Assembly (NCBI GenBank): GCA_026996295.1
Contig: JALWLL010000084.1
Location: forward strand, 1 to 38,782
Direction: 5' to 3'
Source of the DNA: Sulfurimonas sp.
GTDB lineage: Bacteria; Campylobacterota; Campylobacteria; Campylobacterales; Sulfurimonadaceae
DNA length: 38,782 nt
Shown here: piece after piece, positions 14,194-37,510 of the stretch
How the letters are laid out: every line of letters starts with the position of its first letter
Numbering within the stretch: the first letter of the stretch is position 1
The notes under the pieces: generated by a model
The model's input: the letters and a program-made list of their open reading frames with translations, nothing else
Told to the model about the DNA's origin: nothing
The model's database searches: none
Translations under genes and position numbers: made by a program

Positions 14194-15306
14194 TTAAAGA
14201 GCTTCTAAAACTTTACGAAGCTCATCAGGTCTGTTGGAGCCTTTAATGGCATTATCTTTAGTAATTGTTTTTTTCTGCAATAGATCAAGAAGCTCTTGTG
14301 TTTGTGTTGTCATATGTGTTTCTTTTTGGTTTAGCTGCATTTGAGAGTAAATTTGGTGTACTTTATCTTCTCTAATAAGGTTTGAAATAGCAGGGTTTGT
14401 TATGAGAACCTCTTGTGTTGCAACCTTTCCCCCTCCAACTCTCGGCAGAAGTGATTGTGAAATAACGGCAATGAGCGAAGATGCAAGTTGTGCTCTGATC
14501 TGTGCTTGTTCCTCTCCGTCAAACACATCGATGATACGGTTAATAGTTCCGGGTGCAGAGTTGGTGTGAAGTGTACCAAAAACAAGGTGACCGGTTTCAG
14601 CTGCTGTTAAAGCAGCCCCAATGGTTTCGGCATCTCTCATCTCTCCGATAAGTATGATATCGGGATCTTGACGAAGTGCATACTTCAGAGCTGTGGCAAA
14701 TGATTCGGTATTGCTTCCGACATCTCTTTGAGAAAAAAGAGATTTGATATTTTTATGAACAAATTCCACCGGATCTTCAACGGTGATTATGTGTCTTCTT
14801 TCAGTAAGATTGATCTCATGAAGCATGGAAGCAAGTGTTGTTGATTTACCACTCCCTGTTGGTCCGGTAACCAAAATAAGACCTTTTTCTTTTTTAATCA
14901 GCTCTTTAAAAATAGGTTTGTTTCCAAACTCATCAAGTGTTGGAACATCGATGGGGATCATACGAAAGGCACAGGCGATACCACCGATAGTACGGTAATA
15001 GTTTGCTCTAAAACGTCCAATACCCTGAAGTTCAAAAGAGAAGTCAAGCTCGTTTTTATCTTCAAATACTTTCTTTTGCTTGTCTTCAATAAGAGAATAA
15101 GCCATCTCTTCGATATCTTTAGCCCCTAATACAGCGAGGTTTAAAGGTCTCAGTTCCTTATCTATCCTGATTTGTGGTTCACTTCCGACAACAAGGTGCA
15201 GATCTGATGAACCATAGGCTAAAACACTTTTAAGAAGTTTCTTGATATCGATACTTTTTCTCTCTTCGTTCGCATTTGTTTGTGTTGTTGTTTGTTCTTC
15301 ACTCAT
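14194..15306 (-). CDS. pilT: PilT-type retraction ATPase
   Basis: The 370-aa length and all hallmarks of the PilT/PilU branch of secretion ATPases are present: Walker A GPTGSGKST (148-156), Asp box ITVEDPVEF (174-182), Walker B region IILIGEMRD (217-225), His box GTLHTN (244-249) and the PilT signature AISNLIRE (306-313; AIRNLIRE in the family). PilT powers type IV pilus retraction in a cytoplasmic hexamer. No other pilus gene is in the window, so it sits apart from its machine. It is translationally coupled to the arsC/spx-like gene by an ATGA overlap and ends at a hairpin terminator. Confidence 0.92.
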   Translation of the reverse strand: MSEEQTTTQTNANEERKSIDIKKLLKSVLAYGSSDLHLVVGSEPQIRIDKELRPLNLAVLGAKDIEEMAYSLIEDKQKKVFEDKNELDFSFELQGIGRFRANYYRTIGGIACAFRMIPIDVPTLDEFGNKPIFKELIKKEKGLILVTGPTGSGKSTTLASMLHEINLTERRHIITVEDPVEFVHKNIKSLFSQRDVGSNTESFATALKYALRQDPDIILIGEMRDAETIGAALTAAETGHLVFGTLHTNSAPGTINRIIDVFDGEEQAQIRAQLASSLIAVISQSLLPRVGGGKVATQEVLITNPAISNLIREDKVHQIYSQMQLNQKETHMTTQTQELLDLLQKKTITKDNAIKGSNRPDELRKVLEAL

Positions 15307-35995: not shown

Positions 35996-36931
35996 ATGCT
36001 GTTCTTTAAAAAACAACAAAATATGGGTGGGGAAGACTTTAAAAATTACCTTTTTTTAAATCTTTTTTTTCTTTTCATAATACTTTTTTTAACTGGCTGT
36101 AGTGATGGGGATGATAATAAGAATGCTTCACCAACACCAACATCAACCCTAGGTGAATTTTACATAAAATCAGCAGTATATGACAACAATGCTACAGAAA
36201 TTCCAACAGATGATAAACTATACATCTACTTTGATCAAGCTATAAACTCCGCTTCCATAGCTGCAGATATGAGTACAAACTATACGCTAGAGGGGACAGG
36301 AGTTATAGGCACAGCGTCAACAAGTATTTATGATGATACACGATTTCATCAACACATAATTTTTCTAAACAATGACGGTTCAACTTCTATAGCTCTTGTA
36401 GCTAATGATACAAATATATCTATAGCTTCAAGTGTACTAGAAGATACTTTAGGTAACTATACTATGTATGATACAAACAAAACAACAGTAAAAAAGTTTA
36501 GAGTTATGCTAAAAACAGGACAAACTACAAGTTATATAGCAAATGATGATGGATACTATCAAAGTGGAAAAAACAGAAGCTACACAGACAATGGAGATAC
36601 AGTTATAGACAACGCAACCGGACTCATCTGGCAACAAGAGGATGATAATATTACAAGAAATTGGATAGATGCAGGAACTTATTGCGCGGATATTACACTT
36701 GATGGCAACTCAAACTTTAGACTTCCAACTATTGAGGAGCTGGTTCAGTTGACAGATAAAGGAAAAGCCGCAGTCATAGACCCAATCTTTATAAATACAA
36801 ATAGCTCCAATTACTGGTCGTCTACTACTTATTCGCTAGATACACAAATTGCTTGGTATGTCGATTTTCGTACTAGCTTTGATAATACAGGCGATAAAAC
36901 TACTTCAAATTATGTTCGTTGTGTGCGTTAA
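35996..36931 (+). CDS. Surface lipoprotein with Big_5-like and DUF1566 (Lcl C-terminal) domains
   Basis: The 311-aa protein has a long, basic-then-hydrophobic signal region ending in the lipobox FLTGC (Cys near 35) and a low-complexity Asp/Asn/Pro/Thr linker. Next is an Ig-like domain reminiscent of Big_5 (about 55-170, PTDDKLYIYFDQAINSASI). The C-terminal DUF1566 domain (about 195-311) has VIDNATGLIWQQ, NFRLPTIEELVQL, YWSSTTY and a final NYVRCVR. DUF1566 has a C-type-lectin-like fold and is one of the target domains known for diversity-generating retroelements. Its last 40 codons align gaplessly with those of the next gene. AAGG lies about six nt before the start. Confidence 0.75.
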   Translation: MLFFKKQQNMGGEDFKNYLFLNLFFLFIILFLTGCSDGDDNKNASPTPTSTLGEFYIKSAVYDNNATEIPTDDKLYIYFDQAINSASIAADMSTNYTLEGTGVIGTASTSIYDDTRFHQHIIFLNNDGSTSIALVANDTNISIASSVLEDTLGNYTMYDTNKTTVKKFRVMLKTGQTTSYIANDDGYYQSGKNRSYTDNGDTVIDNATGLIWQQEDDNITRNWIDAGTYCADITLDGNSNFRLPTIEELVQLTDKGKAAVIDPIFINTNSSNYWSSTTYSLDTQIAWYVDFRTSFDNTGDKTTSNYVRCVR

Positions 36932-36932
36932 G
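36911..36932 (+). repeat. 22-bp direct repeat, copy 1 (3' end of first DUF1566 gene)
   Basis: Identical over 22 bp to 37489-37510; it covers the codons for YVRCVR, the stop and one more base. The next nine bases match at seven positions. Confidence 0.9.
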
Positions 36933-36992
36933 CGAGAGAATAATTTGAAAATTTGTAAGGATTTTTATGAGATAAGATAATTTACTAACATA

Positions 36993-37021
36993 TTGTTCAT
37001 CCATGAATTTTTGTGTATATA
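36993..37021 (+). promoter_or_regulatory. Sigma-70-like promoter of the second DUF1566 gene
   Basis: TTGTTC (36993-36998) and TATATA (37016-37021) are separated by exactly 17 nt, 71 nt before the ATG. The second DUF1566 gene is thus probably transcribed on its own. Confidence 0.5.
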
Positions 37022-37092
37022 TAAACTAAAGTAAATAGATGATCATAAATTAAAAAAGCTAAATAACTTAGTAAAAAATACAGGAGTTTTAA

Positions 37093-37509
37093 ATGAGAGT
37101 AATCCTTTTAATTATGGTAGGACTTAGTTTACTGCAAGCAAATTATATAAGAGATGACAGTAAAGAAGTAGTGTTAGACACAACAACAAACTTGTTGTGG
37201 CAGGATGACAACGCAGTAATATCATTAAAATATACATGGACAAATGCCATAACACAGTGTGAAAATTTAAACCTAGGTGGCTACGATGATTGGCGTTTAC
37301 CAAGCTTTAATGAACTATACGCACTAATAGATAAAAATACTTTTAATCCGGCAATGAGTTCAGTTTTTTTAAATGTACAAAACACAAGTTATTGGTCGTC
37401 TACCACCTATGCAAGGAATATTACAAATGCTTGGGATGTGTATTTCAATCATGGCGGTGACGGAGTAGGCCTTAAGACTGATACTTCCTATGTTCGTTGT
37501 GTGCGTTAA
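37093..37509 (+). CDS. Secreted DUF1566-domain protein
   Basis: The 138-aa protein has a signal peptide (MRVILLIMVGLSLLQA) followed by a single DUF1566 domain: VLDTTTNLLWQDD, YDDWRLPSFNELYALID, SYWSSTTY, AWDVYF and the terminal YVRCVR. AGGAG six nt before the ATG is a strong ribosome binding site. The C-terminal 40 residues share all framework positions with the preceding lipoprotein, but the intervening loop residues differ. Role unknown; a ligand-binding surface or periplasmic protein is plausible from the fold. Confidence 0.75.
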   Translation: MRVILLIMVGLSLLQANYIRDDSKEVVLDTTTNLLWQDDNAVISLKYTWTNAITQCENLNLGGYDDWRLPSFNELYALIDKNTFNPAMSSVFLNVQNTSYWSSTTYARNITNAWDVYFNHGGDGVGLKTDTSYVRCVR

Positions 37510-37510
37510 G
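37489..37510 (+). repeat. 22-bp direct repeat, copy 2 (3' end of second DUF1566 gene)
   Basis: Identical to 36911-36932. Such a shared constant 3' end is where a retroelement would place its homing-initiation sequence; simple duplication is the plain alternative. Confidence 0.9.

Follow-up and report, generated by a model that had tools for sequence, protein, structure and literature searches.

The stretch of DNA analyzed here (the window, 38,782 nucleotides) carries two tandem genes with DUF1566 domains whose 3' segments differ at many codons. These genes raise the question of whether their variable ends were made by a diversity-generating retroelement (DGR) and, if so, what became of that element. 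DUF1566 is reported to be the commonest Pfam domain among DGR targets (PMC6642488). The window corresponds to contig C84 in a draft Sulfurimonas assembly (G000; 2.1 Mb in 119 contigs, with an estimated completeness of 100%). We consider it very probable that the locus is a decayed DGR that was laid out as VR1, avd, template repeat (TR), reverse transcriptase (RT), and VR2, VR1 and VR2 being the variable regions of two target genes that are now frozen.

The VR1 gene (35996-36931, + strand) encodes 311 aa with a lipoprotein-type start (lipobox LTGC), an N-terminal Ig-like/Big_5-type domain, and a C-terminal Lcl_C/DUF1566 domain. The VR2 gene (37093-37509, + strand) encodes a secreted DUF1566 protein of 138 aa with a signal-peptide-type start and a predicted C-type-lectin fold. 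A first-pass annotation had described tandem DUF1566 genes with variable 3' segments, and both open reading frames are indeed real, with Pfam Lcl_C/DUF1566 scores of 91.5 bits for the VR1 gene and 106.7 bits for the VR2 gene, far above the cut-off of 34.9. When aligned to the template repeats of relatives, the former variable regions occupy 36803-36928 (+ strand, 42 codons) in the VR1 gene and 37381-37506 (+ strand) in the VR2 gene. Segments 36809-36931 and 37387-37509 align without gaps over 41 codons (40 sense codons and the stop). The amino acid is changed in 19 codons, the third base is the same in 13 of those 19, and a further 7 codons differ silently. Both genes end in a common 22-bp stretch, which consists of TATGTTCGTTGTGTGCGTTAA and 1 base past the stop. 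Our recount returned every one of the figures given earlier for the 40 codons.

The shared third bases, mostly in NNT codons, had been described as what a mutagenized template would give. This argument proved weak. Third-base agreement in the variable codons was higher than expected for independent codons (13/19 compared to 6.5/19, p = 0.0017), but the conserved codons agreed at the same level (15/22) and the pattern was also present in control pairs; it was rejected as evidence of templating. Because variable and conserved codons are equal in this respect, the agreement reflects shared ancestry and is no sign of templating. The position of the differences was not specific either. There were 45 VR differences in the window pair, 26 of them at template-A columns. 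Set against the TRs of relatives, since the pair has no TR of its own, these fell at 26/50 A columns vs 19/76 others, and controls without a DGR lean likewise. Control tandem DUF1566 pairs in which no DGR parts were detected, some of which may be unrecognized DGR loci (L167, for example), differed at 49% of template-A columns vs 18% of other columns, compared to 53% vs 16% in the window. Third-base use was also similar, with T or C at 0.80 in the controls vs 0.74-0.79. The template-A enrichment in the window pair is significant (p = 0.002), yet it is shared by the control pairs, and it was rejected as specific DGR evidence. Neither A-column differences nor T/C third bases alone identify a DGR target.

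These results suit a scenario in which no retroelement was ever involved and the pair are simply tandem DUF1566 paralogs, with drift or positive selection behind the divergence of their lectin-fold loops: control tandems with no detected DGR parts vary in the same columns, and the seven silent differences are at positions other than adenines. The case for a DGR history rests instead on relics and on homologous cassettes.

Between the VR1 and VR2 genes, the 161-bp gap retains remnants of avd and RT whose order and strand are those of a cassette, as in a relic DGR locus. These two relics are the sole DGR remains in the gap, and both score above shuffled controls. Their shortness counts against the DGR reading. 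The avd 5' relic (36967-37023, + strand) is 19 codons long, reads MR*DNLLTYCSSMNFCVYI with an in-frame stop, and compares to the intact Avd of G044 (L134) as MRYENLPIYRSSMEFCVYI. Its local score of 61 was reached by 0 of 1000 dinucleotide shuffles (maximum 46), and no other avd match anywhere in the window scored as high, the runner-up reaching 53. An active DGR would have an intact avd accessory gene, and the locus has this relic only. The RT 3' relic (37065-37127, + strand), NLVKNTGVLNESNPFNYGRT*, corresponds to the last ~20 codons of the RT and shares the first 35 bases of the VR2 gene in a different reading frame, an overlap that intact cassettes have too. Read in the frame of the relatives, it is matched by NLMKKIGVINESNPFDYNRA* in G020. 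The nine residues ahead of the VR2 ATG gave p~1e-4 in the register fixed by the relatives, and the significance is confined to that register, a free search of the strictly intergenic bases being not significant. The part overlapping VR2 was equalled by 12 of 20000 synonymous recodings of the VR2 start, and the relic scored 75 compared to 9 or less at 15 other gene starts in the window. The first-pass annotation had noted neither an RT nor a template repeat here. The absence of a template repeat stands; the absence of an RT does not, since its 3' relic is present.

Relatives were searched for in 135 genomes of the same genus, and several of the contigs are Sulfurimonas in public records. Three genomes (G018, G044, and G047) have the complete order of DUF1566 gene (VR1), avd, TR, RT, and DUF1566 gene (VR2), the same gene type in the same position being targeted by an intact DGR. 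In G043, avd, TR, RT, and VR2 lie on a 3.4-kb contig that stops before VR1. The RT of the relatives carries LPIGNLTSQ and YVDD motifs, and its 3' end overlaps the VR2 start in intact loci. Their Avd is recognized by the Pfam bAvd and NCBIfam Avd models, in both cases below the cut-off. Mismatches between TR and VR were at TR adenines in 22/23 and 24/25 cases in G018, 20/21 and 23/23 in G047, 11/11 and 14/15 in G044, and 23/24 in G046, which has a broken RT; over these seven TR-VR comparisons the count was 137/142. The VR2 of G043 was less clean (20/30). Because the mismatches sit almost only at TR adenines for both VRs, a single TR feeds both flanking DUF1566 genes in intact cassettes. Related DGR-type RTs, 36-49% identical, were also found in viral contigs. 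A cassette of the same family with a full-length RT lies on a contig labelled Patescibacteria (L174, JAHJJO010000154.1), which suggests misbinning or transfer; its VR2 is ~49% identical to that of the window.

The earlier proposal that the genes are retroelement-diversified targets is thus supported, in the past tense: orthologous pairs flank an intact DGR, and scraps of avd and RT remain between the window genes. The same relics and homologous pairs, along with an RT-tail imprint in at least 10 relic loci, largely refute ordinary paralogs with no retroelement history, a scenario that we regard as very unlikely. Compared to known DGRs with DUF1566 targets (PMC6642488), the locus is alike in its C-type-lectin-fold target with a 3' VR and in having homologous intact loci with avd, a DGR-type RT, and adenine-specific differences. 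It is unlike them in that its avd is truncated with a stop, the TR is absent, and only the 3' end of the RT is left.

We searched the whole 119-contig draft assembly for the missing parts. No DGR RT was found with a profile of the relatives' RT family. No template repeat was found by DNA searches with both segments or by a pattern search with their common 3' end, which returned just the two genes and chance matches. The assembly has seven DUF1566 domains and one RVT_1 match, on contig C119. The latter was rejected as a DGR RT, the best fit being to retron type VI RT models; this retron type VI-like RT (G000:C119:26782-27345, L008:1294-2217) is unrelated to the DUF1566 locus. According to the first-pass annotation, a genome with neither a DGR RT nor a template repeat would speak against a DGR. 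Neither was found, but the DGR reading is retained, because the cassette was probably lost rather than never there.

A second pair is present in the same assembly on contig C17 (L009:13454-14266 and 14828-15241), with its own RT-tail imprint, SFSLKQGAIDENNPFDYDRA* (L009:14800-14862). Its VRs have 24 differences, 21 of them at template-A columns. Because non-A third positions are changed at 1/39 in the C17 pair vs 13/39 in the window pair, the C17 pair looks recently frozen and the window pair frozen long ago. In intact cassettes, 0-1 of 39 non-A third positions differ between VR1 and VR2. The 13/39 figure also shows that the two window genes have had no common template recently.

These results bear on another scenario, in which a DGR RT and a TR located in an assembly gap continue to diversify the targets in trans. 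The assembly is a draft, contigs tend to break at DGR repeats, and the C17 pair looks recently templated on a contig that stops 64 bp past VR2, where an unassembled adjoining core is possible. However, the RT family profile had no match and no TR-like copy was seen in the whole assembly, and the changed third positions of the window pair argue against a recent shared template. Diversification in trans is accordingly given little credence.

The window genes were also compared with those of relatives. The window VR2 gene is of the same short secreted type as the gene that comes after the RT in intact loci; it was 42-51% identical to VR2 behind an RT and up to 62% identical to the VR2 of relic loci. 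The N-terminal domain of the window VR1 protein was 71-83% identical in L122, L123, L124, and L125, all four without an intact core. A point against the DGR reading is that the nearest clade (window, G097, G059, G029, and G035) yielded no intact cassette. Between the window VR1 gene and its G097 ortholog, 123/148 residues were identical in the N-terminal domain (dN 0.10, dS 0.62) and 53/69 in the rest of the DUF1566 domain, so that the protein outside the VR was 77-83% identical. Within the VR, identity was 18/23 at non-template-AA codons and 5/19 at template-AA codons. This low identity fits DGR activity after the split of the window and G097 lineages, and ordinary loop evolution could contribute. 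Loss of the cassette may postdate the divergence of the window lineage from its closest sampled relatives.

Loss of the core could be followed across genomes. Among relatives, G046 retains avd, TR, and a broken RT, G029 keeps N- and C-terminal RT fragments, and G059 keeps several RT fragments on contig C30. Pieces of avd 5' sequence and the RT tail are left in G061, G097, and contig C47 of G059, and the RT C-terminus alone in G020, G056, and G035. Some nine further genomes of the genus have relics with break points other than those of the window (L122, L123, L124, L125, L127, L131, L135, L138, and L139). The RT-tail imprint at the VR2 start keeps the same frame and register in the relic loci counted above. 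Because break points differ among loci, the sequences argue for several separate deletions. A VR2 tree was also considered for counting losses, and was dropped (97 columns, poor support, and no reduction in state changes relative to shuffles). The tree being too weak, independence of the losses rests on the break points. The search began from VR2 and would miss loci without a target, and survival of the targets is thus partly a matter of ascertainment.

Gain and loss are indistinguishable on that tree, where orphan and RT-bearing pairs are mixed, but an ancestral orphan pair into which the avd-TR-RT core was inserted in other lineages is scarcely credible, since truncated avd and RT pieces with varied break points are not expected from insertion into a bare pair, and this scenario is refuted for relic-bearing loci, which leaves it tenable at most for relic-free bare pairs.

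The same type of relic was found beyond the genus set in L165, L177, L213, and L239. L165 (CAMCYD010000006.1) is labelled Helicobacter pylori PMSS1, a title that probably reflects mislabelling or misbinning of an environmental MAG. In contigs of Desulfosudis, Desulfobulbus, and Desulfobacterales (L201, L212, and L222), avd fragments only were seen between tandem DUF1566 genes. Because of these fragments, such DGR decay may reach beyond Campylobacterota.

Three loci have a TIGR02436 gene (S23-type four-helix bundle) between the targets, namely C17 of the present assembly (L009:14416-14772), contig C265 of G097 (L056:629-1027), and L239:5112-5504. In all three, this gene replaces the deleted core and is followed by an RT 3' relic, and the cassettes may have been broken by its insertion as a mobile element. 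The four-helix gene of C17 was evaluated as a possible Avd, rejected on its match to TIGR02436, and left out of the DGR parts.

For the window locus, decay of a DGR would have proceeded as follows. In an ancestor in which the element was presumably active, the RT, with Avd, would have made errors at adenines in copying the template RNA. Substitution of this cDNA for the 3' end of each flanking DUF1566 gene would have altered the face with which two surface lectins bind their ligands. One or more deletions would then have taken most of avd, the entire TR, and nearly the whole RT, leaving ~19 codons of the avd start and the last ~20 codons of the RT. The RT tail was probably retained because the VR2 start lies within it. 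Both targets would have persisted as ordinary fixed genes, drifting by normal substitution.

The predicted structure of the VR2 protein (pLDDT 89.8) is in keeping with the C-type-lectin fold and C-terminal VR expected of a DGR target. Its top structural match was the Legionella Lcl C-terminal domain (PDB 8q4e), followed by C-type lectin domains. The Lcl domain is the closest solved fold (Z 13.2, 110 aligned, rmsd 2.3, 26% identity), a likeness that covers the fold alone. The frozen proteins may still bind something.

Loss of DGR components has been suggested for single loci before. In Anabaena/Nostoc PCC 7120, all3226 is a paralog of a DGR target that has remnant TR-VR homology and no RT, and removal of DGR components after variant selection was suggested (PMC7517822). 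There are no RT genes or pseudogenes near all3226, whereas in the window avd and RT scraps are in place and belong to a graded series across many species. Pseudogulbenkiania NH8B carries a heavily mutated RT close to DGR target genes with remote VRs (PMC3521204); an intact RT elsewhere still serves those targets, and none was found in the window genome. A literature search covering few subscription papers returned no published DGR in Sulfurimonas and no graded relic series.

DGRs are usually found through their RT, and genes that were shaped and then abandoned by a DGR are invisible to such surveys. The RT-tail imprint at the VR2 start offers a simple sequence key to frozen targets, and the series from intact cassette to bare pair makes the rate of DGR loss, loss after a good variant, and the drift speed of frozen targets testable. 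It is conceivable, though we hold it to be rather doubtful, that loss is adaptive, a case of "diversify, then lock" in which the Campylobacterota cassette is repeatedly deleted and intact, selected targets fix a chosen lectin pair. If so, an RT tail overlapping the start of the second target would mark frozen former DGR targets.

Elsewhere in the assembly, a single open reading frame on contig C63 (L010:7544-8821) encodes a lipoprotein of 425 aa in which the DUF1566 domain occurs twice. The N-terminal domain of this lipoprotein resembles that of the window VR1 protein (42% identity).
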